DNA of 18,100 nucleotides from Desulfobacterales bacterium. GTDB lineage: Bacteria; Desulfobacterota; Desulfobacteria; Desulfobacterales; JAFDCJ01. Below are positions 613 to 17,845 of the stretch, one piece after another. The stretch spans positions 4,464,845-4,482,944 of the forward strand of contig CP070771.1 in NCBI GenBank assembly GCA_020345785.1, given 5' to 3'. Both the position numbers and the translations under genes were made by a program. The notes below the pieces were generated by a model. It was not told the origin of the DNA. It worked only from the letters and a program-made list of their open reading frames with translations, and ran no database searches. Every line of letters begins with the position of its first letter. Position 1 is the stretch's first letter.

Positions 613-613
613 G

Positions 614-634
614 TTATCGGCTGTCCATTGTCCG
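614..634. repeat. heptamer array (TTGTCCG family) before the radical SAM gene
   Basis: Three degenerate 7-nt units, TTATCGG/CTGTCCA and then TTGTCCG on the plus strand, end two bases before the ATG at 612. The family is the same as the array at the murF start (13313-13354). Confidence 0.5.
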
Positions 635-799
635 TGGCGCGTTGCCGGATGCGTTTCAGGACATCAATGGGTATGGGGTCCGTTGTTCCGCCGGAGGCGG
701 ATTCGTTGCTTAAAAAAGCGATATGGCCTCAATTCACTTGCGGACTGATGCCCCGCTGGTTGCTGGGGCAACATTGCACGAGGAAAATCAACCATTAAC

Positions 800-830
800 A
801 GTATAATGGTGCTGTTTTGATCAGAGTCAA
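800..830 (-). promoter_or_regulatory. possible sigma-70-like promoter for the radical SAM gene
   Basis: On the minus strand TTGACT (825-830) is followed after 18-19 nt by TTATAC/TATACT (800-806). The spacing is slightly long. The site lies about 190 bp upstream of the radical SAM start, inside the inverted-repeat element and downstream of the ftsZ terminator. Prediction by eye only. Confidence 0.3.
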
Positions 831-932
831 CAGCCCAAATAAGATGTCCCTTTAGATGTACTAAAGATACCGCCGCATCAAAAAAATCCTCCCTTCCACA
901 ACAACACATAGTCGTTTTAGCGAATGCGCACA

Positions 933-974
933 AACATTGAACAATGAACAACCGACCACAAACAACAGAGACAA
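933..974. repeat. heptamer array downstream of ftsZ
   Basis: Six 7-nt units in phase on the plus strand (AACATTG/AACAATG, then AACAACC, GACCACA, AACAACA, GAGACAA). It ends against the A-run of the ftsZ terminator and lies just inside the right arm of the 677-1008 inverted repeat. Confidence 0.6.
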
Positions 975-998
975 AAAAACCGATCCGCCACCGGCGGA
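973..998 (-). terminator. probable rho-independent terminator after ftsZ
   Basis: In the minus-strand transcript a stem TCCGCC/GGCGGA with a GGT loop (984-998) is followed four bases later by seven U (973-979). An outer CCG/CGG pairing would bring the stem up to the U-run. It sits about 14 bp after the ftsZ stop. The same hairpin is part of the inverted repeat 983-1008, so the terminator may have been brought in by that element. Confidence 0.5.
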
Positions 999-1011
999 AC
1001 AACGGACCTTT

Positions 1012-2187
1012 TTAATCAGCTTTCTTTCTTAAGAAGGTGGGCACATCCAATTCTCTGTCATTGATGATCACACCGCTGGTGCCTCGGTAAATAGCCCCGG
1101 AAGATTCACCCACCGCCCTTTTCTGACGGATGAAGGTCGGCTCATCGTAATCGATGATTTTATCCAGGTCTTCGGGAGTGATGTCTCGGATTTTACCTCG
1201 CAGCGGTTGAACTTGCGCCTCTTCCTTGGCAGGTTCTTTTCCGATTCCGGTTGCAATCACCGTCACCCGCATTTCATCTCCCAAGCTGTCGTCAACCGAG
1301 GTGCCCCAGAAGATCTCCGCATCATCGCCCACTTCGTTGTGAATGAATTCGGACGCTTCGGCAACTTCTTCAAATTCCATGTCGCTGGTAGCGGTGATGT
1401 TCATCAGGACGCCCTTGGCTCCGTTGATGGGAATGTCTTCCAGCAGGGGATGCGAGATCGCCTTTTCGGCAGCCTCCACCGCCCGGTTTTCACCCGATGC
1501 AATGCCAATACCCATCAGGGCCATGCCGGCCTTGGACATGGTGGTTCTGACGTCGGCAAAATCCAGGTTGACGACACCCGGCATCATGATCAGATCCGTG
1601 ATTCCTTTAACCGAGTGCAGCAGGATTTCGTCGGCTTTTACAAACATCTCCATCAAGGTGGCTTTTTTGGATGCCAGACCGCGCAGTCTGTCATTGGGAA
1701 TGGTGATGGCCGTGTCCACCACTTTCTTCAGCGTCTCGATGGCGTCGTCGGCCACTTTGGCGCGTTTTTTGCCCTCAAAAGAAAACGGCCGGGTCACTAC
1801 CGCAACTGTCAACGCCCCCAAATCCTTACTGATTTCAGCAATGACCGGGGCTGCGCCGCTGCCGGTGCCGCCGCCGAATCCAGCCGTGATGAACACCATG
1901 TGACTGTCGGCCAACACCTGCCGGATTGATTCTTCGTTTTCCAAGGCGGCATCCCGGCCTACCTGGGGATTGGCTCCGGCTCCCAGACCCTCGGTAATGT
2001 GTTCGCCAAGTTGAATCCTGATCGGGGCTTTGGAAATCTCCAGAGCCTGGGCGTCTGTGTTGGCCGCAATGAATTTGACTCCCTGAAGATTGGATGCGAT
2101 CATGTTGTTGATGGCGTTTCCACCTGCACCGCCGACTCCGATAACCTTGATTTTCGCTGATTTTTCCTTGTCTACATAAGTAAACAT
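1012..2187 (-). CDS. ftsZ: cell division protein FtsZ
   Basis: FtsZ is the tubulin-like GTPase that polymerises at midcell into the Z ring and recruits the divisome. The 391-residue product is of usual length. The GTP-binding signature GGGTGSG is at residues 105-111, and the N-terminal Gly-rich nucleotide loop VGGAGGNAINNM is near 18-29. The T7-loop NLDFAD needed for hydrolysis across the dimer is at 207-212. A charged linker of about 50 residues leads to the C-terminal peptide DVPTFLRKK, the docking site for FtsA. The ATG at 2187 has a strong Shine-Dalgarno (AGGAGGG, 2193-2199), among the best in the window. It is the last dcw gene, 223 bp after ftsA, and a probable terminator follows. The two-base-perfect motifs leave little doubt about identity. 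Confidence 0.98.
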   Translation of the reverse strand: MFTYVDKEKSAKIKVIGVGGAGGNAINNMIASNLQGVKFIAANTDAQALEISKAPIRIQLGEHITEGLGAGANPQVGRDAALENEESIRQVLADSHMVFITAGFGGGTGSGAAPVIAEISKDLGALTVAVVTRPFSFEGKKRAKVADDAIETLKKVVDTAITIPNDRLRGLASKKATLMEMFVKADEILLHSVKGITDLIMMPGVVNLDFADVRTTMSKAGMALMGIGIASGENRAVEAAEKAISHPLLEDIPINGAKGVLMNITATSDMEFEEVAEASEFIHNEVGDDAEIFWGTSVDDSLGDEMRVTVIATGIGKEPAKEEAQVQPLRGKIRDITPEDLDKIIDYDEPTFIRQKRAVGESSGAIYRGTSGVIINDRELDVPTFLRKKAD

Positions 2188-2220
2188 GTTTGCCCTCCTA
2201 CCGATTTTAGATGTGGGTTG

Positions 2221-2255
2221 TTAGTTATAGGTTATAGGTTATTGGTTAATGGCTA
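2221..2255. repeat. heptamer array, TTRGTTA family
   Basis: Five consecutive 7-nt units: TTAGTTA/TAGGTTA, then TAGGTTA, TTGGTTA, ATGGCTA. It begins 20 bp upstream of the ftsZ Shine-Dalgarno. The same family occurs at 7610-7637, 7734-7768 and 11857-11884. Confidence 0.75.
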
Positions 2256-2293
2256 TTTGCCGTTTTTGAATTCTGTCATCCGTCTGCTTGAAG

Positions 2294-2325
2294 GCTGGGA
2301 AGCCGCGAAGCCGGGAAGCTGCGAA
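2294..2325. repeat. octamer array, GCYGGGAA family
   Basis: Four 8-nt units: GCTGGGAA/GCCGCGAA, then GCCGGGAA, GCTGCGAA. The plus strand is purine-rich here, the reverse of the related arrays at 4799-4854 and 13588-13619. Confidence 0.75.
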
Positions 2326-2342
2326 GTAGCATCCTTTTTTCC

Positions 2343-2410
2343 GCATTCCGATTTCCGCCATCCGACTTCCAGCACCTCTGCTTCTGCCCTCTGTCTTCTG
2401 TCATCTGTCT
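2343..2410. repeat. two joined heptamer arrays ending at the ftsA stop
   Basis: Four units of type GCATTCC/GATTTCC (2343-2370), then five units of type TCTGTCT/TCTGTCA (2376-2410). The last unit ends on the base next to the ftsA stop codon (2411-2413). Confidence 0.75.
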
Positions 2411-3637
2411 TCAAACCACATCATGAAACCACTTCTTCATGGTTGTCATGACACGATTGAAGATGTTTTTATCGCGGATTCTGAACTTCTTTGAATTACG
2501 GTTACGGGCACCATACAAAACCAATCCCACTCCGGTGGCGTACATGGGATTATTGACCACGTCAACCAGACCCTTAATTCCTTGGGGCTTGCCCAGTCGG
2601 GTGGGCAGCTTGAAAACCGACTCCGCCACCTCCGTTACACCTTCCAGCAAAGACGATCCGCCGGTTAAGACAACTCCGGAACTGATGGCGTTTTCCATTC
2701 GGGCGCGATAAATTTCCCGGTAAGTCAGTTCGAAAATTTCCTCGAGACGGGGTTCCAGAATTTCTCCAAGGATCTGTCGCGGAAGTTTACGGGGTCCACG
2801 ACCGCCCATTCCCGATACCTCGATGGTTTCATCGCTGCTGATATCCCGGGCCAGACAGGTACCGTACTTCTTTTTTATTTTCTCGGCCTCGGCCTGAGGG
2901 GTGCGCAATCCAATCGCGATATCGTTGGTCAGGTTGTTGCCTCCCAAAGCCAGCACGAACGTATGCTTTATATTTTTGCCGGAAAATACGGCCAGGTCGG
3001 TGGTCCCGCCGCCCAGATCCAGCAGGGCGGTGCCCAGTTGTTTTTCTTCTTCAGTCAGGACGGCTTCACCGGATGCCAGTGACTCTAAAACAATATCGGA
3101 AACATCAAGTCCGGATCGATTGGCGCATTTCACAATGTTGTGGGCCGACGCGACGGCCCCGGTAACGATGTGAATTTTAGCCTCCAACCGAACCCCGGCC
3201 ATTCCCACCGGATTTTGAATACCAGGTTCGTCGTCGACTATAAATTCCTGGGGCAGAACATGAATGACTTCACGATCCATGGGAATCGCAACCGCTCTGG
3301 CGGCATCGATAACCCGCTCGACATCGTTTTCCGTGATTTCCGATCCTTTGATGGCAACAATACCGCGGCTGTTAAATCCCGTGATATGCCCGCCTGCAAT
3401 ACCGGTGCATACCGAAGAGATTTCACAGCCCGCCATTAGTTCCGCCTCTTCCACCGCTTTTTTAATTGATTCCACAGTCGATTCGATATTAATGACCACC
3501 CCCTTTCGCAACCCGATGGAAGGATGTGTTCCAATACCGATAATGTTGGTATCCGACCCGGATACCTCACCTACCACGGCACAGATCTTGGTCGTTCCGA
3601 TATCAAGGCCCACGATAATATCACCTGCTCGTCGCAT
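2411..3637 (-). CDS. ftsA: cell division protein FtsA
   Basis: FtsA is the actin-like ATPase that anchors FtsZ filaments to the inner membrane and passes signals to the septal synthases. The start chosen at 3637 gives 408 residues. The frame is open to an ATG at 3661, but the only strong Shine-Dalgarno (AGGAGG, 3644-3649) sits 6 nt before 3637. ATP-binding motifs of the actin/Hsp70 fold are present: phosphate-1 DIGTTK (12-17), phosphate-2 DLGGGTTD (207-214) and adenosine loop VLTGGSSLLEG (323-333). The C-terminal stretch 392-408, with alternating basic and hydrophobic residues and a Trp, is the expected amphipathic membrane-targeting helix. It is 73 bp downstream of ftsQ and upstream of ftsZ, the classical ftsQ-A-Z order. 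A heptamer array begins directly at its stop codon. Confidence 0.97.
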   Translation of the reverse strand: MRRAGDIIVGLDIGTTKICAVVGEVSGSDTNIIGIGTHPSIGLRKGVVINIESTVESIKKAVEEAELMAGCEISSVCTGIAGGHITGFNSRGIVAIKGSEITENDVERVIDAARAVAIPMDREVIHVLPQEFIVDDEPGIQNPVGMAGVRLEAKIHIVTGAVASAHNIVKCANRSGLDVSDIVLESLASGEAVLTEEEKQLGTALLDLGGGTTDLAVFSGKNIKHTFVLALGGNNLTNDIAIGLRTPQAEAEKIKKKYGTCLARDISSDETIEVSGMGGRGPRKLPRQILGEILEPRLEEIFELTYREIYRARMENAISSGVVLTGGSSLLEGVTEVAESVFKLPTRLGKPQGIKGLVDVVNNPMYATGVGLVLYGARNRNSKKFRIRDKNIFNRVMTTMKKWFHDVV

Positions 3638-3643
3638 TCTATT

Positions 3644-3649
3644 CCTCCT
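3644..3649 (-). promoter_or_regulatory. ribosome binding site deciding the ftsA start
   Basis: AGGAGG on the minus strand, 6 nt upstream of the ATG at 3637. It favours 3637 over the in-frame ATGs at 3661 and 3652, which have no such site in front. Confidence 0.8.
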
Positions 3650-3710
3650 CATGATCCCCATTGGATTGTCGAATGTCTCTTGGCAATCGTTTCAATCGGA
3701 TCCGGCCATT

Positions 3711-4568
3711 TCACTCCAATCCAAGGGGATGTATCACGACACGCTCTAAATTGTTCAGATCGATGCGATCAAAATCCAATATGTTCTGTTGACGCTTAAG
3801 ATACGAAAGCAACTTCGCCAGCATATGATACTTGCCGGGAAAGTCGCTGTATCCGAGATTTATGGCCTTGATGCTGTCAAAGGCATAAAGTGTCAGGCCG
3901 ATTTGCCGGTCGACTTTAATCTGCCGGACGAGACGATTCGGCAGAATGGCGCCCTGCTGCAAACCCATTTGTAAGACCTGCATCACCGCTTTAAACGGTG
4001 CCGAATGGGCCGGCATCCCTTGTTTTTCTGATGATTGCAACTGACCATATACCGGCAGATCCGAGATATCGAGGCCGCTGACGACCGGTAGATCTTGGGG
4101 ATCCGATGAATCCATTGCTTTGAATATCTGGCCCTGATGATTGATCAGAAACTTTTGCCCGAGATCGACCTGCGCCAGGGCTTGATGTTCTTTGACGTGA
4201 ATGATCAGCCGGGATGGAATCTCCCGGCGAACCTCAGCGTCAGCAATCCACGGGTGGGCCAGCAGCCTTTTTCGGACCAAAGGGAGATTAACCGCCAGGA
4301 TATTATCGCCTATGCGGACCCGGGCCTGCCGGGCGACCTCCTCCGGAGTTAACCGCTGCGTTCCCTCGATGCTCATCTGTCGCGCCGCAAAATAACTACA
4401 TTTGGTAGCCAGATCATGAACCAGAACGAAAAAGACGGTTACCACCACCAATGCCACGACTGACGCCAACGCCTTGAATGCTAGGGTAATGCCCCCCAGG
4501 ATTTTATGGCGCTTCTTGGTCTTATCGGACTTACGATAATTTTTGCGCGGCTTCTTACTGAAAAACAC
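3711..4568 (-). CDS. ftsQ: cell division protein FtsQ
   Basis: FtsQ is a bitopic inner-membrane protein that links early and late division proteins and in other bacteria binds FtsB/FtsL. The 285-residue product has a strongly basic cytoplasmic N-terminus (1-28), one membrane segment at about 30-52 (LVVVTVFFVLV core), a POTRA domain at about 62-128 (IEGTQRLTPEEV ... HPWIADAEVRREIPSRLIIHVKE) and then the periplasmic FtsQ beta domain. The start is GTG at 4568, with GAGG (4575-4578) at suitable spacing. Upstream, in the place where murB and ddl often lie, there is only repeat DNA. ftsA follows after 73 bp. Confidence 0.95.
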   Translation of the reverse strand: MFFSKKPRKNYRKSDKTKKRHKILGGITLAFKALASVVALVVVTVFFVLVHDLATKCSYFAARQMSIEGTQRLTPEEVARQARVRIGDNILAVNLPLVRKRLLAHPWIADAEVRREIPSRLIIHVKEHQALAQVDLGQKFLINHQGQIFKAMDSSDPQDLPVVSGLDISDLPVYGQLQSSEKQGMPAHSAPFKAVMQVLQMGLQQGAILPNRLVRQIKVDRQIGLTLYAFDSIKAINLGYSDFPGKYHMLAKLLSYLKRQQNILDFDRIDLNNLERVVIHPLGLE

Positions 4569-4588
4569 CTGTTACCTCATAAATAAAT

Positions 4589-4636
4589 GAGCACTTTGTT
4601 CAAGGAGCACTTCGTTTAAAGAGCGCTGCGCTTGTC
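4589..4636. repeat. three tandem 16-bp repeats upstream of ftsQ
   Basis: Units of exactly 16 bp: GAGCACTTTGTTCAAG at 4589, GAGCACTTCGTTTAAA at 4605, GAGCGCTGCGCTTGTC at 4621. They begin 11 bp upstream of the ftsQ Shine-Dalgarno. Confidence 0.7.
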
Positions 4637-4724
4637 GAAGATCCCGTTGCTTTTTGCGGGGAGGCAAAAAAGAGGATGTAATCGTTTTTTACCTGGATCT
4701 TTCTGCTCTTTACGGCATAAGCCG

Positions 4725-4794
4725 TGCGTTGTGCGTTTTGCTCTCTTCGCTCTGCTCTTTGCACTCTGCTCTATGCCCTCTGCCTTATGCTTTC
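4725..4794. repeat. ten-unit heptamer array, TGCTCTA family
   Basis: Ten 7-nt units fit without a phase break; examples are TGCGTTG, TGCTCTC, TGCACTC, TGCTCTA, TGCCCTC. This is the longest heptamer array in the window. The same words recur at 17699-17726 and, in the other orientation, inside murE (15230-15250). Confidence 0.85.
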
Positions 4795-4798
4795 CACC

Positions 4799-4854
4799 TT
4801 CCAAACTTCCCAGCTTCCCAGCTTTCAAGCCTCCCAGCCTCCTACCTTCTCATC
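4799..4854. repeat. seven-unit octamer array, TTCCCAGC family
   Basis: Seven 8-nt units, including two identical TTCCCAGC copies (4807-4822), then TTTCAAGC, CTCCCAGC, CTCCTACC. It follows the heptamer array after four bases, so the period changes from 7 to 8 at this point. Confidence 0.85.
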
Positions 4855-4880
4855 TTTTTCGTATCCCGACTTCCGGATTC

Positions 4881-4910
4881 GGACAGGCTCAGTCCTCGAC
4901 GCTCAGTCCT
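4881..4910. repeat. direct repeat across the murC stop codon
   Basis: GCTCAGTCCT occurs at 4887-4896 and 4901-4910. The second copy contains the murC stop codon (TGA on the minus strand, 4903-4905). Confidence 0.6.
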
Positions 4911-6282
4911 GTGCCCCCCACTCCTGAAGCAGCTGCTCACCCACTTTATAGACATCTCCGGCTCCCAGCGTCAGCAAGATGTCGGCCGGTTTTAAATTTT
5001 GCTTCAGATAAGCCACCGCATCTTCAATCCCCGCCGCATATGCTACCTCCTTGTGACCGTGGGCCTGAATGCCTTCACACAGCAGCCGGCCGGTCACGCC
5101 TTCGATTTCTTTCTCACTGGCAGCATAAATCGGTAATACCAGCAGAACATCGGATTGATAGAATGAACGGGTGAAGTCATCAAACAATGCCCGGGTCCGA
5201 CTGTAGCGATGCGGCTGAAATACAACAACCTTGCGTCTGCCGGGCCAGCATTTTTCAACAGCCTCCAGAGTACTCTTTATTTCGGTGGGATGATGCCCGT
5301 AATCGTCTACCACCGTTATGTCACGTAACTCACCTTTGATCTCCAACCTGCGCTGGACGCCCTCAAGGGTCTCCAGCGCGCCCTTGATGGCGGCAAAAGG
5401 CACATCCAGTTCGATGCCCACCGCGATGCTCGCCGTGGCGTTATAGACGTTGTGAAGGCCCGGAAGGTTCAGGTTAATGCGGCCAAGCTTCTGCCCATGG
5501 CGGTACACGGTAAATTGGCTTTGCCGCTTTTCAAATTTCACATCTCTGATCTGGAAATCGGCCTGGGTACTCATGCCATAAGTTGTATAGCGTTTTTTAA
5601 TGTCAGGGATCAGATCCTGTATCGGTTCATTGTCCAGACAAAGGATGGCCAGACCGTAAAAGGGTATCCGGTCGATAAAGTTCAAGAAAACGGATTTGAT
5701 GGCATCCATGTCCGCATAAAAATCAAGATGCTCCCGATCAATATTCGTGACCACGGCGATGGCGGGCGAGTATTTTAAAAATGATCCATCACTCTCATCG
5801 GCTTCAGCCACGATAAAATCACCCTGGCCCAACACGGCGTTAGAACCGACACTTTTCAGCTTGCCGCCGATGACCACTGTCGGGTCAAGCCCTCCGCGGG
5901 CCAATACCGACGCCACTATCGAGGTCGTTGTGGTCTTGCCGTGCGCACCGGCGATGGCCACACTGTACTTCAACCGCATCAGCTCGGCCAGCATCTCTGC
6001 CCGCGGAATCACCGGAATTGATGCCTGCTCAGCAGCAACTACTTCCGGATTGTCGCGGCTGACGGCCGAAGACGTCACAACGACATCGGCGCCGACGATC
6101 TGATCTGCCAGATGACCTTCAAAGATAATTCCGCCCAATGCTTTGAGACGTTCGGTGATATCGGAGGATTTTAAATCGGAGCCGGAAACCTTGTAGCCTA
6201 GGTTGAGAAGCAACTCGGCAATGCCGCTCATTCCGATACCGCCGATTCCTACAAAATGGATGTGATATTTTTTGCGATACAT
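4903..6282 (-). CDS. murC: UDP-N-acetylmuramate--L-alanine ligase MurC
   Basis: MurC adds L-alanine to UDP-MurNAc, using ATP, in the cytoplasm: the first amino acid step of the peptide stem. The 459-residue product has the N-terminal nucleotide-fold loop GIGGIGMSG (12-20), the Mur ligase P-loop GAHGKTTTT (112-120), a central domain with DESDGSFLKY and TNIDREHLD, and a C-terminal domain with the DDYGHHPTEI and FQPHRYSRT motifs typical of MurC. The ATG at 6282 must be right because the Gly-rich loop starts about ten residues in. No Shine-Dalgarno is visible, since an octamer array runs to within two bases of the ATG. The stop codon also lies in a direct repeat. It follows murG after 158 bp. murB, which makes its substrate, is not next to it. 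Confidence 0.98.
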   Translation of the reverse strand: MYRKKYHIHFVGIGGIGMSGIAELLLNLGYKVSGSDLKSSDITERLKALGGIIFEGHLADQIVGADVVVTSSAVSRDNPEVVAAEQASIPVIPRAEMLAELMRLKYSVAIAGAHGKTTTTSIVASVLARGGLDPTVVIGGKLKSVGSNAVLGQGDFIVAEADESDGSFLKYSPAIAVVTNIDREHLDFYADMDAIKSVFLNFIDRIPFYGLAILCLDNEPIQDLIPDIKKRYTTYGMSTQADFQIRDVKFEKRQSQFTVYRHGQKLGRINLNLPGLHNVYNATASIAVGIELDVPFAAIKGALETLEGVQRRLEIKGELRDITVVDDYGHHPTEIKSTLEAVEKCWPGRRKVVVFQPHRYSRTRALFDDFTRSFYQSDVLLVLPIYAASEKEIEGVTGRLLCEGIQAHGHKEVAYAAGIEDAVAYLKQNLKPADILLTLGAGDVYKVGEQLLQEWGAQD

Positions 6283-6284
6283 AA

Positions 6285-6324
6285 GATTAGTTGATTAGTT
6301 GAATAGTTGATTGGTTGATTCGTT
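6285..6324. repeat. five-unit octamer array at the murC start
   Basis: Units GATTAGTT/GATTAGTT, then GAATAGTT, GATTGGTT, GATTCGTT, all 8 nt. The array starts three bases upstream of the murC ATG and takes the place of a ribosome binding site. It contains the left arm (6290-6306) of a 17-bp inverted repeat with 6429-6445. Confidence 0.85.
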
Positions 6325-6428
6325 AAAAAAGACCTTATTTTAGTTTATTGATTAAAGATTTAACTCATTGCGTGTTTGATATTGAACTTGGAAGCATGGT
6401 TGCGTGGCCGGCTGAAAATTTCCTTTAC

Positions 6429-6468
6429 CTATTCAACTAATCAACCAGTCAGCTCATCAACCAACTTA
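6429..6468. repeat. five-unit octamer array over the murG 3' end
   Basis: Units CTATTCAA/CTAATCAA, then CCAGTCAG, CTCATCAA, CCAACTTA, the inverse of the family at 6285-6324. The murG stop codon (6441-6443) and its last eight codons lie inside the array. Bases 6429-6445 pair perfectly (17 bp) with 6290-6306. Confidence 0.8.
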
Positions 6469-7571: not shown

Positions 7572-7609
7572 ATCGTTTCTTAATTGCTTCTATATGTAAT
7601 CACCGCTTG

Positions 7610-7637
7610 TTATTGGTTATATGTTATTAGTTATTAG
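7610..7637. repeat. heptamer array upstream of murG
   Basis: Units TTATTGG/TTATATG, then TTATTAG twice. Bases 7622-7635 are the exact reverse complement of 7749-7762 (14 bp), so this array and the next form inverted arms around about 113 bp of AT-rich DNA. Confidence 0.8.
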
Positions 7638-7733
7638 AATTCGTACAATTACTCCAATGTTAGTGACTTCGTTTCCTAAGCTTTGAAATCTCATTTTTTA
7701 TTTATATCAAGCTATCTGACTCATATCTAGAGC

Positions 7734-7768
7734 TAACCACCAATAACCAATAACTAATAACAAATATC
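7734..7768. repeat. heptamer array at the ftsW stop
   Basis: Units TAACCAC/CAATAAC, then CAATAAC, TAATAAC, AAATATC. The last base is shared with the ftsW stop codon (7768-7770). It is the inverted partner of 7610-7637. Confidence 0.8.
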
Positions 7769-10334: not shown

Positions 10335-10369
10335 AATCAAGGAATTTTTTCTGCCCGTCGTTCCAATCC

Positions 10370-10425
10370 GACCGCCCCGCTCTTGCTGGCAGGAGGGCAG
10401 GGCCTGAGCAAGAGCAGAGGCGGTC
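10370..10425. repeat. long stem-loop upstream of murD
   Basis: GACCGCC (10370-10376) pairs with GGCGGTC (10419-10425), GCTCTTGCT (10379-10387) with AGCAAGAGC (10407-10415), and CAGG (10390-10393) with CCTG (10403-10406). There are at least 16 stem pairs with small internal loops. No U-run follows on either strand, so it does not look like a terminator. It may be a leader structure or a palindromic repeat. Confidence 0.75.
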
Positions 10426-10516
10426 AGAGTTTGGTTTCAGCCGTTCAAAGGTTTAAGGTTCAGGGTTCGCGGGTTGCATTTTTTTCACCATCCAAACAGC
10501 GAACCGCAGAACAGCA

Positions 10517-10594
10517 GAATATCGAAGGCTGGAATCGCTGCGCTCTGTCTTTTTTATAAATAGACAGAATGCATTCCTTCGACCTTCGATATTC
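10517..10594. repeat. imperfect long palindrome in the mraY-murD gap
   Basis: GAATATCGAAGG (10517-10528) pairs with CCTTCGATATTC (10583-10594), GGAAT (10531-10535) with ATTCC (10573-10577), and TCTGTCT (10544-10550) with AGACAGA (10562-10568). A nested hairpin of 24 pairs results. Confidence 0.75.
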
Positions 10595-10614
10595 GTTATT
10601 CATTATTCGATATT
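10587..10614. repeat. heptamer array, CGATATT family
   Basis: Units CGATATT/CGTTATT, then CATTATT, CGATATT. The first unit is the arm of the palindrome at 10517-10594, so the array may have grown from the palindrome end. Confidence 0.75.
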
Positions 10615-10694
10615 CGCTTTTTATATAGTTTCTTTTACGATCAAGCTCGCTTCTATGGCGGCCAGCGGCTGCGCTGATTCCTTGACAGACACAA

Positions 10695-11774: not shown

Positions 11775-11781
11775 CTTAGTT

Positions 11782-11826
11782 CCTTAATTGCCTAAATTGT
11801 CTAAAATGTCTAAAATGCCTAAAATT
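11782..11826. repeat. nonamer array upstream of mraY
   Basis: Five 9-nt units: CCTTAATTG/CCTAAATTG, then TCTAAAATG twice and CCTAAAATT. It begins 7 bp upstream of the mraY ATG, and the mraY Shine-Dalgarno is within its first unit. Confidence 0.8.
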
Positions 11827-11856
11827 ATGGATGCCGATCTCTTTTATGAAACGAAT

Positions 11857-11884
11857 CATCAACAACTTATAACAAATAACCATT
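11857..11884. repeat. heptamer array containing the murF stop
   Basis: Units CATCAAC/AACTTAT, then AACAAAT, AACCATT on the plus strand. On the minus strand the murF TAA (11883-11885) is part of the array sequence AGTTAATGGTTA. Confidence 0.7.
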
Positions 11885-13313
11885 AACTTTTTTTCTCTCC
11901 CGCCCAATCCTTCAGTCCCTGTACCACTTTCTCCATCGCCATGCCGCGCGAACCTTTCACCAGTACCCAGTCCCCGGGTTGCAGCCAGGCGATCAGATCT
12001 TCGATTATTTCCTCGCGGGATCCGGTGATCGAATCCGCCGCCGGCAAACCTTCATTACGGGCACCTGCTGCCAGCGAATCGGCATATTCACCGTAGGCAT
12101 ACAAACGGTTGATCCCGGATCGGGCGGCCAGGGCACCAACCTGGCTGTGCAGCGACGCCGCCTGCCGGCCGAGCTCCAGCATATCTCCCGCCACAAAAAT
12201 GCCCCTGGCCCCGGCGCGCATCCTTTTGAGAGTTGTCAGGGCGGCTTTCATTGAATCCGGATTGGCATTGTAAGTATCATCGATAATGTGAATCCCATTG
12301 GGTGTTCGATGGATATTCATTCGGCCGCTGACCGGTTCAAACGCCTCCAAACCCGCTTTGATCTTACCGGCAGACAACCCCAGCAGATTGCCAACTGCCG
12401 CGGCCGCCAGTGCATTGGTAACCATAAAGCGGCCCGGAGAATTCAGCCGGATGGATATGCTTTCTTCAACAAGTTTCAGCGTAAAACATATTGCGTTCTC
12501 TTTTTCGGCAACATCATCTGCTCGGATTGCAGCATCCGGCGCCAAACCATAGAGGTGCACTTCGTGAGCAGTTTGGCGGGCCAGTTGCCGCACCCGGGGG
12601 TCATCGGCATTGAGAACTGCTTTGCCGTGTCGACCCAAGCCTTTTAAGAGAGAGCCTTTTTCCCGCGCGACCCCTTCCATTGATCCCAGGCCTTCCAGGT
12701 GGGCCGGGCCGATATTGGTAATAACCCCGACATCCGGGGTGCAGATTTCGGCCAATCTGGCGATTTCGCCCGGATAGTTTGTGCCCAGCTCCACCACGGC
12801 CCATTGATGCTCAGGCTCAAGACCCAGCAGGGTCAGCGGCAAGCCGATCTGGTTGTTGAGATTTCCAACGGTTGCCAGGGTGTTGAATTGCTGTGACACG
12901 ACAGCGGCCGTCATTTGACGGGTGGTGGTCTTGCCGTTAGAGCCCGTAATGGCGACAACCGAAACGTTGGAACGTCGGCGATTGAACGCCGCCATATCAC
13001 CCAGGGCACGAGTGGTGTCTTCCACCGCGACGACCGCGACACCTTTTTCTTTCCATTTCGCTACCGGCAGATGTTCAACATTTTTGTTGCTGATGACCAG
13101 CCCCCGGCCCCCCTGCTCGACAACATCCGGCGCGAAAGTATGGCCGTCATGAACCTCCCCTACGACGGCTACAAAAACGCCGCCGGCAGCTACGCGGCGC
13201 GAGTCGATAAAGACCTGCGCAAACAGATACTGCCGGTCGCCGCACAAAAGTTCACCGCCGGTCGCTTCAAGAATCTCGCTGGTTGTCCAGGGTATGGGAT
13301 GACTGTTCGTCAT
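11883..13313 (-). CDS. murF: UDP-MurNAc-tripeptide--D-Ala-D-Ala ligase MurF
   Basis: MurF adds D-Ala-D-Ala to UDP-MurNAc-tripeptide, completing the soluble pentapeptide precursor. The 476-residue product has the N-terminal substrate domain (PWTTSEILEATGG near 9-20, IDSRRVAAGGVFVAV at 36-50), the P-loop ITGSNGKTTT (122-131), LGTNYPGEI and ITNIGPAHLE in the central domain, and DDTYNANPDSM with FVAGDMLELG in the C-terminal domain; the last two set MurF apart from other Mur ligases. The ATG at 13313 is supported by the early PWT motif, but no Shine-Dalgarno is seen. Six heptamers run into the start codon, and the last unit plus ATG reads CGGACAATG. The stop lies in another array. Neighbours are murE upstream (398 bp) and mraY downstream. 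Confidence 0.97.
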   Translation of the reverse strand: MTNSHPIPWTTSEILEATGGELLCGDRQYLFAQVFIDSRRVAAGGVFVAVVGEVHDGHTFAPDVVEQGGRGLVISNKNVEHLPVAKWKEKGVAVVAVEDTTRALGDMAAFNRRRSNVSVVAITGSNGKTTTRQMTAAVVSQQFNTLATVGNLNNQIGLPLTLLGLEPEHQWAVVELGTNYPGEIARLAEICTPDVGVITNIGPAHLEGLGSMEGVAREKGSLLKGLGRHGKAVLNADDPRVRQLARQTAHEVHLYGLAPDAAIRADDVAEKENAICFTLKLVEESISIRLNSPGRFMVTNALAAAAVGNLLGLSAGKIKAGLEAFEPVSGRMNIHRTPNGIHIIDDTYNANPDSMKAALTTLKRMRAGARGIFVAGDMLELGRQAASLHSQVGALAARSGINRLYAYGEYADSLAAGARNEGLPAADSITGSREEIIEDLIAWLQPGDWVLVKGSRGMAMEKVVQGLKDWAGEKKS

Positions 13314-13354
13314 TGTCCGTTGTTAGTTGTTAGTTGTTTGTTGTCCTTTGTCCG
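13313..13354. repeat. six-unit heptamer array at the murF start
   Basis: Units TTGTCCG/TTGTTAG, then TTGTTAG, TTGTTTG, TTGTCCT, TTGTCCG, with no phase break. The first base (13313) is the complement of the A of the murF ATG. Confidence 0.85.
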
Positions 13355-13359
13355 TAGCG

Positions 13360-13420
13360 AGTCTCAGCCGTCTCACCTATATCCTGATAACTCCTATCAG
13401 CTGACTAAAGGGATGAGACT
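13360..13420. repeat. nested stem-loops in the murF leader
   Basis: Outer arms AGTCTCA (13360-13366) and TGAGACT (13414-13420) pair over 7 bp. A second GTCTCA at 13370-13375 could pair with the same right arm. An inner perfect hairpin is CTGATA (13384-13389), loop ACTCC, TATCAG (13395-13400). It lies 47-107 nt upstream of the murF ATG and could act as RNA structure. Confidence 0.55.
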
Positions 13421-13587
13421 GTTTTCTTAGACCTTTGATGTTAACTTAAATCCAGGTTCAGCGCTTGTCGAGGTCAGAGATCCACCTCAACTTGGCTATT
13501 ATCAAATAATCCGTTTCTAATGAGTGCTTGAACGAAAACCCGATCGCATAATTTTTTAAACGCTATGGGGCGTCCCGGCTTTATTGC

Positions 13588-13619
13588 CTTCCAGCTTCCC
13601 AGCCTCCAAGCCTCTTAAC
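13588..13619. repeat. four-unit octamer array, TTCCCAGC family
   Basis: Units CTTCCAGC/TTCCCAGC, then CTCCAAGC, CTCTTAAC. Confidence 0.7.
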
Positions 13620-13651
13620 TCAGCCCTCGCGTCTCGCTCCGCGAATCAAGT

Positions 13652-13679
13652 ATCCGGCATCGAGGATCCGACAACCAGC
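13652..13679. repeat. heptamer array, ATCCGGC family
   Basis: Units ATCCGGC/ATCGAGG, then ATCCGAC, AACCAGC. The words resemble the patch inside murE at 15201-15231. Confidence 0.5.
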
Positions 13680-13705
13680 ACCCCTCGGCAGGCTGTGCCA
13701 CGGAG

Positions 13706-13726
13706 CATTGACTACGGACCACTGAC
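13706..13726. repeat. heptamer array supplying the murE stop codon
   Basis: On the minus strand the units read GTCAGTG/GTCCGTA, then GTCAATG. The murE TAG (13712-13714) spans the second and third units, so the last murE codons (AVSGP) are array-derived. Confidence 0.65.
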
Positions 13727-15364
13727 GGCGCGCAACGCCTTGCGCGCTTCTTCGCGATCATCAAAATCTATCGTGGTATTGCCAAGTATCTGGTATGTCT
13801 CATGTCCTTTGCCGGCAATTATTACGGCATCGTTCGGCCGGGATGCCAATATTCCCAGCCCAATGGCGCGTCGGCGATCCGTCTCAACAATATAGCCCTT
13901 TTTATCAAAGCCCGTTTTCAAATCCTGAACCGAATATTGGACACCGCCCACCTTTTTGATACCCGGCAAAATCTGTTCGATGATGGCAGCCGGGTCCTCG
14001 GTGCGCGGATTGTCCGATGTCACAATCGACAGGTCGCAAAGCCGGGCGACGATCTCTCCCATCAGAGGGCGTTTTTCCCTGTCGCGGTCACCGCCGCAGC
14101 CAAATACGCAGATGATTCTGGCCGGTGCGATCTGTTTTAAGGCGGAAATAGCATTTTCCAGGGCATCCGGCGTATGGGCATAATCCACGTATACAAAGCG
14201 CCCACTTGAATTTTCAATGCTCTCAAGGCGGCCGGGTATGGCACCTAATGCCTCGATGCCCGCTTTTATGGCATCGAGTGCAATGCCCAGTGCTGCAGCT
14301 GCTCCGGTGGCACTGAGGATATTTGCAACATTATGAAACCCCACGAGGGGAGTTTTGAAATCAAAACTCCCCTGCGGGGTGGAAACCCTCCCATGGGTGC
14401 CCATTAATCCATATTGGGAGGTTTCGGCCTTAATTTCGCAATCCGGAGCAGAGCCGGTTTTAATAACCTGCATGGCAAGAATATTTGCAAGCTCCTTGCC
14501 TTTGGTGTCATCACAATTAACAACCGCCACGGCTCTGTTCTTTTTAGGTCCTGTGCCGAGATATTCGGTGAATAACCTTTTTTTGCTGGACCAGTAGGAT
14601 TGCATGTCGCCATGGAAGTCGAGATGATCCTGGCTCAAATTCGTAAAGACCGCCATGTCGAATCGACAGCCTCTAATCCGGTAAAGGTCCATGGCGTGGG
14701 AAGACGCTTCCATAATGACATGGGTGACACCTTCCTGCAGCATTTCCGACAGAATCCTCTGCAGATCCAGGGATTCCGGAGTCGTCATGGGATTGGGAAA
14801 TGTTTTGTCGGCATAGCGGTAATTTATGGTTCCGATCACTCCTACCTTGAAACCGGCGCACGACAAGATACTTTCGATTAAATAAGCGACGGTGGTCTTG
14901 CCGTTGGTACCGGTAATACCGATCAGGGTCATATGTTCCGAGGGGTGGCTAAAAAAACAGGCGGCCAAATCGGCCAGCCCCATGCGCGTATCCAGCACCT
15001 GTATGATGACCGGTTTGATTTTTATGGATGACGCCCCGCCAAGTTCGTAAGAGAACTGCCGTGGTTCCTTTTGAACCACCATCGCTGCCGCTCCCCTTTC
15101 CAAAGCCTGGTCGATATAATCATGTCCGTCAGCGCTGCGACCCACAACGGCAACAAACAGGCCATTCGGCTCAACCTCCTGGGCTCGGTAATGAATTGAA
15201 CCGATGTCGGTATCCGGCAAGCCGGCATCGGGCATAGAGCATAGGGCATAGCGAACCCTTTCAATACTTTTTGCGCTTTGCGCTTTGCGTTCCGCCTTCA
15301 GGCTGAACATTCCAAGGGGTTCAATTGCTTTTAATAAGGTTGAAAGCTTCACCCGTTCACCCAT
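13712..15364 (-). CDS. murE: UDP-MurNAc-L-Ala-D-Glu--DAP ligase MurE
   Basis: MurE adds the third stem residue to UDP-MurNAc-L-Ala-D-Glu. The DNPR motif in VTSDNPRTEDP points to meso-diaminopimelate as the substrate. The P-loop is GITGTNGKTTVAY (149-161), followed by TTPESLDLQ, MEASSHAMDLYR, FTNLSQDHLDFHG and VDYAHTPDALE. At 550 residues it is longer than the usual figure of about 490. Much of the excess is residues about 20-52, coded by a palindrome and heptamer words, inserted between the MKLSTLLKAI-like N-terminus and DIGSIHYRAQEVEPNGLFVAV. The ATG at 15364 overlaps the ftsI stop by 8 bp, indicating coupling; a GTG four codons later (VKLSTLL) is a possible alternative. The stop codon lies in a heptamer array. 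Confidence 0.97.
   Translation of the reverse strand: MGERVKLSTLLKAIEPLGMFSLKAERKAQSAKSIERVRYALCSMPDAGLPDTDIGSIHYRAQEVEPNGLFVAVVGRSADGHDYIDQALERGAAAMVVQKEPRQFSYELGGASSIKIKPVIIQVLDTRMGLADLAACFFSHPSEHMTLIGITGTNGKTTVAYLIESILSCAGFKVGVIGTINYRYADKTFPNPMTTPESLDLQRILSEMLQEGVTHVIMEASSHAMDLYRIRGCRFDMAVFTNLSQDHLDFHGDMQSYWSSKKRLFTEYLGTGPKKNRAVAVVNCDDTKGKELANILAMQVIKTGSAPDCEIKAETSQYGLMGTHGRVSTPQGSFDFKTPLVGFHNVANILSATGAAAALGIALDAIKAGIEALGAIPGRLESIENSSGRFVYVDYAHTPDALENAISALKQIAPARIICVFGCGGDRDREKRPLMGEIVARLCDLSIVTSDNPRTEDPAAIIEQILPGIKKVGGVQYSVQDLKTGFDKKGYIVETDRRRAIGLGILASRPNDAVIIAGKGHETYQILGNTTIDFDDREEARKALRAVSGP
15201..15290. repeat. palindrome and heptamers inserted in murE
   Basis: Outer CCGATG (15201-15206) pairs with CATCGG (15226-15231) around a CCGGC-AA-GCCGG hairpin (15214-15225). 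This is joined to GGGCATA/GAGCATA and GGGCATA (15230-15250), and further along TTTGCGC/TTTGCGC, TTTGCGT (15270-15290). The same word types fill intergenic gaps, but here they lie in frame in the murE N-terminal region. Confidence 0.8.
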
Positions 15365-17084
15365 TTGCCTTGGTTCCCACGGATACTCTGAATTTGGTTT
15401 TGTCGCTTTCAGGCGCGACGTTTAAATAGTTAAGTGTTTGTTGGGCGATATCTTTGAATACCGGTGCTGCGACAATGCCGCCGTAGAAAATTTCCTTGGG
15501 TTCATCAATGACGACCAGGATTGCAATTTGCGGATGATTGGCCGGTGTAAATCCCACAAATGACGCAACATGTTTGTTGTCCGAGTATTTTCCGTTTTCA
15601 TCCAGCTTGCGGGCGGTGCCGGTTTTGCCGCAAACCGAATATCCATCGAGAGCGGCATTGACGCCGGTACCGCCCTCGGTAATGACGGTTCTCATAATTT
15701 TTTTGACAATTCCGGCAGTTCGTGCCGAAACCACACGCCGCACCTGCCGGGGTTTGAAGGATTTAACAGGAAGGCCGTTTTGATCCGTAATCGACCCCAC
15801 GATATAAGGCTGCATCAGGACTCCATCATTGGCGATAGACGCAACCGCCGTAATCAATTGAACGGCAGAAACTGCGATTCCATGACCGAAAGAGATGGCG
15901 CCTATGTCTATATTCGACCAGGATGAATAATGGGAGAGACTGCCCGGTGTTTCACCCGGGCAGTCAATTCCTGTTTTTTCACCAAAACCAAAGTTGCGAA
16001 ATGTTTGATAAAGTCTTTTAGCTCCCACCTTTTCGCCGACTTTCACAGCCCCGATGTTGCTCGAAAACTTAATGATTTGCTGCAGTGACAGCCAGCCGTG
16101 CCGGCGGATATCATGAACAACGTTTTTTCCAATTTTGTAAGCGCCGTTCTCACAATAAAAAATATCATTTTCTTTGATGTTGCCATACTCCAGTGCTGCG
16201 GCGGCGCTGAAGATCTTGAAGGTCGATCCCGGCTCAAATGGATCGGTGATGGCCCGGTTGCGCCACCGTGATCGGTCGTATTCCAAATAGGAATTCGGAT
16301 TGAATGTCGGATAATGGGCAATGGCCAGTATGGCACCTGTCTGCGGCTGCATGACAATTGCCAAAGCGGAGCCGGCCGAATATTGATCGGCTGCCCGCTG
16401 CAGGGCGTTTTCAGTTATATACTGGATGGTACTGTCGATGGTCAGAACCAGGTTATGACCTCTGTTGGTCGCCAATTGACGATTTTCAGGGCTAAAACCG
16501 TTGCCCAGAGCATCCTTGAAAACCGTAAAATTTTTGTCAGCCCCCGTGAGTTGCCGGTTGTAATAAAACTCGATACCTTCCAAGCCTTCGCCGTCCAAGC
16601 CCGTAAAACCCAGTGCCTGGGCCGCCAGCGTCGTATTGGGGTAATAGCGGTTGTATTCCTGGATAAAATCAATGCCCGGCAAATCAAGATCTTTAACCAG
16701 ACTGGTTTCTTTGGCCGTTGTTTTGCGCTTGATCCAGACGAAGGATCTGTCGGACGCCAGTCGCATTTTGATTGCACGGGCATCCAACTTCAAAATCGCG
16801 GCCAGCGCCTTGGCGCTCGCTTTTACTTCCGTGACCCGCGACGGATGGGCGGCAATGGACGTCACATCTCCGCTAAGAGCCAGCTCCCGCATATTGCGGT
16901 CATAAATAGTGCCGCGTTTGCCGGATGTCGTTAATGATTTTTCATACTGATCCGTTGCTATTTGCGATAGCCACTGACTCCGATAAACCTGCAGGTGTAC
17001 CGCTTTGGCGATAATGGCCCCCAAGGCTCCCAAAAAGAAGAGACCCACCAGCAGGATTCGCAATTTTATATATTTATTTTCCAT
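15357..17084 (-). CDS. ftsI: peptidoglycan transpeptidase FtsI (PBP3-type)
   Basis: FtsI is the class B penicillin-binding protein that cross-links septal peptidoglycan with FtsW. The 575-residue product has a short basic cytoplasmic end, one membrane anchor at about 9-29, the PBP dimerisation domain (RGTIYDRNMRELA near 57-69; RYYPNTTLAAQALGF at about 146-160) and the transpeptidase domain. That domain carries the SxxK motif STFK with S287/K290, SxN as S341-S-N343 and KTG at 487-489. No PASTA domain follows, so a Spo/Pbp type with PASTA is excluded. The ATG at 17084 has no evident Shine-Dalgarno. ftsL is 139 bp upstream, and the 3' end overlaps murE by 8 bp. Confidence 0.96.
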   Translation of the reverse strand: MENKYIKLRILLVGLFFLGALGAIIAKAVHLQVYRSQWLSQIATDQYEKSLTTSGKRGTIYDRNMRELALSGDVTSIAAHPSRVTEVKASAKALAAILKLDARAIKMRLASDRSFVWIKRKTTAKETSLVKDLDLPGIDFIQEYNRYYPNTTLAAQALGFTGLDGEGLEGIEFYYNRQLTGADKNFTVFKDALGNGFSPENRQLATNRGHNLVLTIDSTIQYITENALQRAADQYSAGSALAIVMQPQTGAILAIAHYPTFNPNSYLEYDRSRWRNRAITDPFEPGSTFKIFSAAAALEYGNIKENDIFYCENGAYKIGKNVVHDIRRHGWLSLQQIIKFSSNIGAVKVGEKVGAKRLYQTFRNFGFGEKTGIDCPGETPGSLSHYSSWSNIDIGAISFGHGIAVSAVQLITAVASIANDGVLMQPYIVGSITDQNGLPVKSFKPRQVRRVVSARTAGIVKKIMRTVITEGGTGVNAALDGYSVCGKTGTARKLDENGKYSDNKHVASFVGFTPANHPQIAILVVIDEPKEIFYGGIVAAPVFKDIAQQTLNYLNVAPESDKTKFRVSVGTKANG

Positions 17085-17223
17085 TACAAATTAGGTTCTT
17101 ATTTTTGCTACTCTGATAATTTATAGCCGGTGCCTGATAAATGATAGCTTGGGTTTTAGGCCTTAATTAAAAAGGCTAACTTCATTAATTTTTGGCAATC
17201 TAGAGCATTTCAGGCATTTATAT
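17085..17223. other. short gap between ftsL and ftsI
   Basis: 139 bp, AT-rich. It has a weak stem-loop near 17159-17179 (TTAGCCTT with AAGGCCTAA on the minus strand, one bulge, no U-run). The 9-nt words of the ftsL-stop array (17205-17226) lie at the ftsL end. Confidence 0.45.
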
Positions 17224-17226
17224 TCA
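17205..17226. repeat. nonamer-like repeats at the ftsL stop
   Basis: GCATTTCAG and GCATTTATA are spaced by 9 nt and are followed by TTCAGGGCATT. On the minus strand the ftsL stop TGA (17224-17226) is part of AATGCCCTGAATATAAATG. Confidence 0.45.
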
Positions 17227-17535
17227 GGGCATTACGATTGTATGTTTCGCACTCGGCGAAATCAAACCCAGCTTTTCTCTGGCTATCTTTGAAATGCGTG
17301 CAGGTGATTTGAGACGCGCCAGTTCAATTTTTAAATTATCCCGCACCGTCGAGAGCTGCTGGTTCTTCTCCATCAGATCGGCGATATCATATTTAATCTG
17401 CGTGTACTGCACCCGGCACCACGTGTAGAAAAGAAGCTCGGCGATGAATACGATCATCAAAACCAGACAGGTCATAACCGCTTTCGGGTTGCGTTGCTTA
17501 AGCTTCTGCTTGCTGTTCTTTACTTTTTTTGACAC
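17224..17535 (-). CDS. ftsL: cell division protein FtsL
   Basis: FtsL is a small bitopic membrane protein that joins FtsB and FtsQ and activates FtsW/FtsI. The 103-residue product has the expected layout: a Lys-rich cytoplasmic tail (1-18), one membrane segment (about 19-39, MTCLVLMIVFIAELLFYTW), and a periplasmic coiled coil (about 45-78, with LMEKNQQLSTVRDNLKIELARL) ending in the ARISKIAREKLGL motif common to FtsL/FtsB-like proteins. The start is GTG at 17535 with no clear Shine-Dalgarno; the next Met is at the membrane segment, so GTG is favoured. The gene lies between rsmH and ftsI, which is the usual ftsL place and decides against FtsB. The last codons and the stop are made by a repeat. 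Confidence 0.88.
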   Translation of the reverse strand: MSKKVKNSKQKLKQRNPKAVMTCLVLMIVFIAELLFYTWCRVQYTQIKYDIADLMEKNQQLSTVRDNLKIELARLKSPARISKIAREKLGLISPSAKHTIVMP

Positions 17536-17578
17536 CAGAATAGTATAGAGTTGATTAGTTTATAAATTATTGCAGAAA

Positions 17579-17650
17579 GGCTGGGAGGCTTGGATGCCGG
17601 GAGGCGAGGCTTCTCAGCCTCCAATCCTGCAAGTTTCTCAGCCTCCTGTT
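17579..17650. repeat. nine-unit octamer array with orientation switch
   Basis: Units in phase 8: GGCTGGGA/GGCTTGGA, TGCCGGGA, GGCGAGGC, then TTCTCAGC/CTCCAATC, CTGCAAGT, TTCTCAGC, CTCCTGTT. The first units are the reverse complement type of the later ones, so a GGAGGC/GCCTCC hairpin (17601-17622) forms at the switch. Confidence 0.75.
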
Positions 17651-17698
17651 TCCCCGATTCCCCGTCTCTCCCCCTCTCCGTTTCACCTCTCCACGCCA

Positions 17699-17782
17699 TG
17701 CTCTATGCGCTCTGCTCTCTGCCCTTAGCTTCCCACCTTCTTACTCTCTGACTTTCTCACCATCTTGTTTTGCCTTCCCAGC
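17699..17782. repeat. heptamer array passing directly into octamers
   Basis: Four heptamers, TGCTCTA/TGCGCTC, TGCTCTC, TGCCCTT (17699-17726), are followed without a gap by seven octamers starting AGCTTCCC/ACCTTCTT and including TTCCCAGC (17775-17782). Confidence 0.7.
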
Positions 17783-17825
17783 CCCCAGCCTCAGCTTGCC
17801 GCGGCATAGTCCAACGGACGAAGAC

Positions 17826-17839
17826 GGGTCCTCAGTCCT
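17826..17839. repeat. heptamer pair after rsmH
   Basis: GGGTCCT/CAGTCCT lie 6 bp beyond the rsmH stop codon. The GTCCT/CAGTCCT words recur at the murC stop. Confidence 0.35.
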
Positions 17840-17845
17840 TCATAC

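Follow-up and report, generated by a model that had tools for sequence, protein, structure and literature searches.

To our knowledge, heptamer repeats in bacterial spacers have been known for decades and have no accepted cause. The arrays described here lie in the dcw (division and cell wall) gene cluster of an uncultured Desulfobacterales bacterium, in an 18,100-nt stretch of contig CP070771.1 (the window), and in related genomes. As reported in the cited passages of Rehm et al (2015; PMC4692102), GGGAATC and GGGGA(C/T)T heptamers of Xanthomonas and Nostoc sp. PCC 7120 form 70 and 75 cases of two convergent repeat sites, with few between divergent open reading frames (ORFs), and their role is left open. 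The present arrays resemble them in being degenerate intergenic heptamer arrays spread across the genome, in forming facing pairs with the G-strand outward from the ORFs and in varying strongly in length and sequence among close relatives. The Rehm repeats, as described there, constitute one G-tract word family per group and are discussed as G-quadruplexes, whereas genomes of the Desulfobacterales carry many unrelated words each, including AT-rich words and period 8, and most arms are without GGG. A search of the window for a GGGNATC dimer with at most one mismatch found none.

The short tandemly repeated repetitive (STRR) sequences of cyanobacteria include hairpin-forming copies between hupS and hupL (PMC2670836) and a degenerate heptanucleotide hairpin in the P6b loop of the trnL intron (PMC3488679). 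They share with our arrays the degenerate 7-nt units, a location in intergenic DNA or RNA loops and the ability to pair as two hairpin arms, but belong to another phylum, and the passages cited make no mention of outward polarity. The TAACTGA repeats of marine Beggiatoaceae (MacGregor, 2015; PMC4679880) are likewise short spacer heptamer arrays with a preferred direction; in the portion cited, 147 of 170 sets aim at a start codon, mostly without a ribosome site. That system is unlike ours in having one word, few copies at the 3′ ends of genes and a single inverted repeat, and the family itself was rejected for the window, where TAACTGA occurs as a single copy against a chance mean of 1.03. Mrazek et al (2007), as cited in PMC4679880 and PMC4692102, found heptamers to be the commonest of the 5–11-nt repeats in most prokaryote genomes and considered slippage and a polymerase footprint; polarity and facing pairs go unmentioned in those citations. 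The tandem repeats of Borgs (PMC9879509, as far as the cited passages go) are also fast-evolving, intergenic as well as genic and strand-biased in composition, but have perfect units, unit lengths divisible by three in ORFs, and belong to archaeal extrachromosomal elements. An initial annotation of the window had held the arrays to be undescribed in kind, a view at odds with the heptamer abundance and 5–11-nt repeats in the passages just cited (PMC4679880, PMC4692102). For particular words, in Xanthomonas, Nostoc and Beggiatoaceae, published work already covers heptamer abundance, hairpin pairing and outward-G placement. What is new is a word-independent outward-G rule, including period 8, in Desulfobacterales; none of the titles and abstracts listed by searches of an open-access library describes such arrays in Desulfobacterota.

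The cluster lies on the minus strand, in the order rsmH (partial), ftsL, ftsI, murE, murF, mraY, murD, ftsW, murG, murC, ftsQ, ftsA and ftsZ, followed by a partial gene, names being assigned from gene order and translations. Searches with tblastn using the 12 window proteins from FtsL to FtsZ recovered the identical order in relatives, and the best MraY matches are all Desulfobacterales (locus L002, 92%; L001, an Olavius-associated metagenome-assembled genome, 91%; L008 and L014, 89%). Arrays were called with a lag-match detector, with 100 dinucleotide-preserving shuffles as control. The 2,668 bp of non-coding DNA in the window, in 11 stretches, contain 18 arrays, of which 11 have period 7, 5 have period 8 and 1 each has period 9 or 16, compared with a mean of 0.33 and a maximum of 2 in the shuffles (0.04 for period 7 alone); the window arrays far exceed chance. 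The periodicity proposed in the initial annotation is therefore real, all nine of its word families are visible, and Tandem Repeats Finder returns nearly the same sites. Its placement of arrays in almost every dcw junction holds for 9 of the 11 stretches, the detector finding none in ftsQ–ftsA (49 nt) or ftsL–ftsI (139 nt), and its estimate of 4–10 units becomes about 2.7–7.4 units (19–53 nt). The coding DNA (15,432 bp) has 3 arrays, two of them of period 7 within murE, and Rfam models at gathering score gave 0 matches to the window. With tandem units mostly of 7 nt, a mostly intergenic location, many dispersed copies in relatives and indirect signs of local unit duplication, the arrays are STRR or heptameric simple sequence repeats.

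The initial annotation had overlooked a facing arrangement: many arrays belong to pairs with the G-rich arm first, the G-rich strand on either side heading away from the adjacent gene irrespective of the word. Pairs were defined as neighbouring arrays of period 7, 8 or 14 at most 300 bp apart and of GC skew 3 or more, drawn from 521 arrays in 2.67 Mb; the count leaves out other periods, pairs with a skew below 3, loci under 2,000 bases and loci L081–L084. Neighbours of opposite bias run G-then-C in 62 cases and C-then-G in 3 (binomial p = 2.5e-15, kinship ignored), or 69:5 if all opposite signs are counted whatever the skew; the 56 same-sign neighbour pairs are on average alike in direct orientation. 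With one vote per genome the majority is G-first in 19 of 19, the window being one of them. Array-free tandem gaps have no such order (67:60); pairs in convergent gaps are 6:1 G-first. The order is kept in arms below 35% G+C (25:1) and in the two classes above (19:1 and 18:1), in arms without GGG (45:3, GGG being absent from 45 of the 62 G-first pairs) and in those with at most one GG (14:0). It is also kept across levels of arm complementarity, with ratios of 13:0 for scores up to 9, 7:0 for scores of 10–14 and 42:3 above. A further 58 loci were fetched around two words and 56 analysed, those of Desulfonema magnum and HSG2 being left out. They gave 15 G-then-C, 2 C-then-G and 11 same-sign pairs, with stop-adjacent arrays 24 G and 2 C; L305, L313, L315 and L316 among them come from other discovery genomes, dropping the L313 pair leaves 14:2, and the genomes behind some of these loci may overlap those behind the dcw loci. 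Another 24 loci gave 4:0 G-first, the four richest having been located by repeat word. Within the window, all five junctions with both kinds of array run from G to C (ftsA–ftsZ GGCC, murC–ftsQ GGC, ftsW–murG GC, mraY–murD GC and murE–murF GC), the C member of murC–ftsQ being a weak period-16 array. The arrays of the window, G-biased (G-type) or C-biased (C-type), are as follows.

933..951, minus strand: period-7 TTGTTCA, 3′ of ftsZ
2224..2255, minus strand: period-7 CCTATAA, C-type, 36 nt ahead of the ftsZ start
2286..2326, minus strand: period-8 CTTCCCGG, C-type, ftsA–ftsZ
2338..2370, minus strand: period-7 CGGAAAT, G-type, ftsA–ftsZ
2383..2409, minus strand: period-7 GACAGAA, G-type, 1 nt past the ftsA stop
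4586..4633, minus strand: period-16, weakly C-type, murC–ftsQ
4739..4790, minus strand: period-7 GCATAGA/GCAGAGA, G-type, murC–ftsQ
4790..4842, minus strand: period-8 GGAAGCTG, G-type, murC–ftsQ
6285..6324, minus strand: period-8 AACTAATC, C-type, ending 2 nt ahead of the murC start
7609..7637, minus strand: period-7 TAACTAA/TAACCAA, C-type arm, ftsW–murG, pairing with 7739-7766 in the predicted fold
7739..7766, minus strand: period-7 GTTATTG, G-type arm, 1 nt past the ftsW stop
10448..10468, minus strand: period-7 GAACCTT, C-type, mraY–murD
10576..10616, minus strand: period-7 CGAATAT, G-type, mraY–murD, word shared with L001 at this junction
11782..11825, minus strand: period-9 ATTTTAGGC, G-type, 7 nt ahead of the mraY start, word shared with L002 at this junction
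13319..13353, minus strand: period-7 GGACAAC/TAACAAC, C-type, 5 nt ahead of the murF start
13591..13614, minus strand: period-8 GGAAGCTG, G-type, murE–murF
15224..15251, minus strand: period-7 CTATGCC, within murE, in a variable-length linker near the protein N-terminus
15270..15289, minus strand: period-7 CGCAAAG, within murE, in the same N-terminal linker
17650..17679, minus strand: period-8 GGGGAATC/GGGAGAG, G-type, rsmH–ftsL
17698..17725, minus strand: period-7 GCATAGA/GCAGAGA, G-type, rsmH–ftsL

The relation to gene ends was followed in 74 loci, whose dcw gaps, defined by homology and 40 nt or longer, number 218; 131 arrays lie in 87 of these gaps. Arrays in the first 40 nt past a stop comprise 45 G, 6 C and 4 neutral, and those in the last 45 nt ahead of a start 35 C, 3 G and 8 neutral. 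Arrays crowd against stops, 33 of the 131 beginning 0–4 nt past one compared with 9.1 expected at random placement, and show no crowding at starts (10 within 0–4 nt, 9.0 expected). Array-free gaps have 67 G and 21 C after stops, 44 G and 41 C before starts. In the pooled set of mechanically called ORFs G outnumbers C next to stops by 94:22 in tandem gaps and by 20:4 in convergent ones; next to starts C outnumbers G by 78:17 in tandem gaps and by a non-significant 7:2 in divergent ones. Arrays with a complementary partner are 53 G to 4 C at stops and 52 C to 5 G at starts; those sharing their gap only with non-complementary arrays are 16 G to 5 C and 17 C to 1 G, and solitary arrays 45 G to 17 C and 16 C to 13 G. 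Solitary arrays are therefore at background level and the polarity is tied to gaps with two arrays.

How the units arise was approached through 81 arrays having 8 or more units and no fewer than 3 unit types. Neighbouring units share an identity of 0.844, which declines to 0.727 at distance 7, and the drop vanishes when unit order is shuffled; 63 of the 81 arrays show this gradient and 18 the reverse. Slippage or unequal duplication combined with point mutation yields such a gradient, which fresh templated writing of each unit does not. The greater likeness of adjacent units bears out the common process of growth suggested in the initial annotation, though not its use of degeneracy as an argument against ordinary slippage, since a unit-similarity gradient is what slippage and point mutation produce.

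Word families recur, as had been expected, both within genomes and across the order. Array pairs have like words in 14.4% of 216 comparisons between different junctions of one genome, in 5.0% of 1,388 between the same junction of different genomes and in 3.1% of 6,475 others. A repeated GGTT-NNN pattern is present in 10 of 10 selected relatives, with 1,637 sites in HSG2, and in 116 of 194 genomes of the order; repeated ATTGA-NN is found in 57 of these 194 and the window octamer CTTCCCAGC(C/T)TCCCAGC in 15, its reversed pattern matching once. Most array-rich genomes have fewer sites of the GGTT pattern reversed than of the pattern itself; D. magnum has more (94 vs 3), but other words dominate there. 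A comparison of six genomes by eye, junction by junction, gave a divided answer on conservation at orthologous junctions. Several gaps carry different words in relatives, for example the stop side of murE–murF. Words kept at the same junction are the period-9 word before mraY (window and L002), CGAATAT after mraY (window and L001), a GAACCTT-type word (window and L002), a TAAC-type word before ftsZ (window and L001) and a GGACAAC-type word before murF (window, L001 and L007).

The arrays are not unique to the contig. Across 81 loci (80 from relatives and the window; 100,334 bp of intergenic DNA) there are 98 arrays of period 7, 19 of period 8, 17 of period 10, 8 of period 14 and 5 of period 9, and a single shuffle gave at most 2 per period; mechanical ORFs of the same loci hold 60 of period 7, 38 of period 9, 26 of period 6, 21 of period 15, 15 of period 12 and 12 of period 8. 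Recurrence on a genome-wide scale was examined in relatives. Twenty evenly spaced 20-kb pieces of the D. magnum chromosome (400 kb) yielded about 116 arrays, 73 of period 7, 10 of period 8 and at most 6 of any other, with 0 after shuffling; period 7 is the dominant one there. D. alkanivorans is array-poor (4 of period 7 in 400 kb), and 20 further genomes, mostly first contigs (240 kb), gave 9 of period 7, 12 of period 9 and one polar pair; being array-rich is therefore a trait of certain genomes. As like arrays are found genome-wide in relatives, a dcw-specific system was rejected, and with it the view of the operon as a special target. The 17 arrays of period 10 are of AAAGTGG type, mainly in divergent gaps, and are presumably MraZ operator sites. 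Repeats of the period-10 AAAGTGGATT type lie in divergent gaps near the cluster start at L002 2878-2898, L024 1339-1370, L043 3608-3628, L051 3530-3551 and L062 3468-3493, again presumably MraZ operator sites. In D. magnum (L095 6688-10540), C-type CCTAACACCTGACAC arrays recur every ~242 bp within a longer repeat.

It would seem fairly probable that the arrays are degenerate STRR or long simple sequence repeats, occurring genome-wide, mostly tolerated in spacers and not a device of the division operon, and that a two-sided event lies behind the facing pairs. The computations show that units arise by local, slippage-like duplication and then drift by point mutation, that words are re-used at unlinked junctions of one genome and that many arrays are one side of a G-first pair. 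The polarity would belong to the two-sided junction and not to single arrays. As it is seen at the level of pairs, an event that reached both flanks of a single point is favoured, and such a junction event is probably the cause: fold-back copying, or the extension and joining of two DNA ends, may have laid down or kept the polarity. Being independent of word, G-tracts and arm complementarity, the polarity narrows the search and speaks against quadruplex and plain-hairpin accounts; it points toward an agent working on both sides of the junction and hints at a shared making or keeping of the arrays.

Several points weigh against this interpretation. The pair counts pool related genomes, gene calls beyond the dcw cluster are mechanical, and the split into paired and solitary arrays was made after the polarity had been seen. 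The 60 period-7 arrays in mechanical ORFs, real and spurious ORFs together, sit poorly with a spacer habit. In divergent gaps, the arrays lying far from starts are of mixed type, many being D. magnum C-type arrays within larger repeats, and the period-9 window array ahead of mraY is G-type and breaks the start-side rule. The start-side words common to relatives at the same junction make some conservation by selection possible, and arms whose scores class them as unrelated may have been complementary long ago and drifted since. Two cyanobacterial plasmids, with 16 and 29 heptamer arrays (1 and 2 in shuffles), show no polarity: of the inverted pairs, 2 are G-first, 3 are C-first and 1 is neutral, with 5 G, 5 C and 5 neutral arrays after stops and 5 G, 5 C and 2 neutral before starts. 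For Nostoc, the cited passages report outward placement for the chromosome and no such repeats on the plasmids (PMC4692102), and on that account the plasmid test is small and perhaps ill placed.

An alternative, unlikely in our view, is that facing arrays are selected RNA hairpins that link a stop to the next start and serve in stabilising or processing the polycistronic mRNA or in translational coupling, roles of the sort suggested for cyanobacterial repeats in the cited passages of PMC2670836. Many pairs can indeed form a predicted hairpin that would bring stop and start codons together. The reverse-complementarity score of an array with its own partner is 19.7, against 8.1 with other arrays of the genome and 6.2 with those of other genomes. 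Among dcw gaps of 60–260 nt the mean fold z against shuffles is −3.33 where both kinds of arm occur (n = 18), −2.00 where a single kind does (n = 46) and −0.69 in array-free gaps (n = 77). In the window, however, the predicted folding is weak, the five gaps of this length lying between z = −1.6 and +0.5 and the clearest hairpin being that of ftsW–murG. Moreover, the polarity persists in pairs lacking complementarity (the 13:0 above), words differ between relatives at many junctions, and convergent gaps also hold G-first pairs. We take the folding to be mostly a by-product of facing pairs.

Somewhat less likely again is separate selection at each gene end, by which C-rich arrays would be lost after stops, for example through Rho recruitment, and G-rich arrays before starts, where they could create spurious ribosome sites or structure. 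The counts at dcw stops and starts (45 G to 6 C, 35 C to 3 G) are what this would produce, and array-free gaps too lean towards G after stops. Against it, solitary arrays are unbiased at starts and at background bias at stops (16 C to 13 G and 45 G to 17 C), and the polarity after stops extends to convergent gaps (20:4) and to AT-rich pairs (25:1).

A more speculative candidate, to which we would give slightly less weight still, treats facing arrays as scars of a telomere-like process at DNA ends. At an intergenic break both 3′ ends would gain G-rich words of 7–8 nt, through a stuttering or template-carrying polymerase, and their joining would then place G-words to the left and C-words to the right; the unit-similarity gradient would reflect later slippage. 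If true, this would account for the polarity of two-array gaps, for unrelated and AT-rich words, for tandem as well as convergent gaps and for successive different words of like polarity on the same side.

That G-quadruplex formation sets the placement, as considered for the Xanthomonas GGGAATC repeats, is very improbable: the same outward placement is in print for G-tract heptamers (PMC4692102, cited passages), but in this group the GGG-free arms, equally strict in polarity at 45:3 and at 14:0 with at most one GG, contradict it as a general cause. An assembly or sequencing artefact or chance periodicity is likewise very improbable, given that shuffles of the window, the 81 loci and D. magnum are nearly empty, that arrays abound in a D. 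magnum record described as a complete genome and that two other assemblies share the window's word at the same junction.

Ahead of murC and murF the arrays stop 2 and 5 nt short of the start codons (6283-6324 and 13314-13353), leaving little space for a usual ribosome site, which resembles the lack reported for TAACTGA repeats in the cited part of PMC4679880. Between mraY and murD lies a 75-nt element whose two ends are complementary (10361-10434 of the window, minus strand; L001 11342-11416; L002 11110-11184; L014 11087-11160; L037 2461-2534). It is 82–99% identical across the five genomes and far better conserved than its flanks; the window copy has no Rfam match. Short palindromes of the type TCCGCC-N-GGCGGA were seen by eye at 677-712 and 980-1002 of the window and in the ftsL–ftsI, murF–mraY and ftsQ–ftsA spacers of L001. 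The murE linker with the two heptamer arrays (15224-15289) differs strongly in length among relatives, with a similar peptide there in L001 and L014, and arrays may thus turn into protein sequence.

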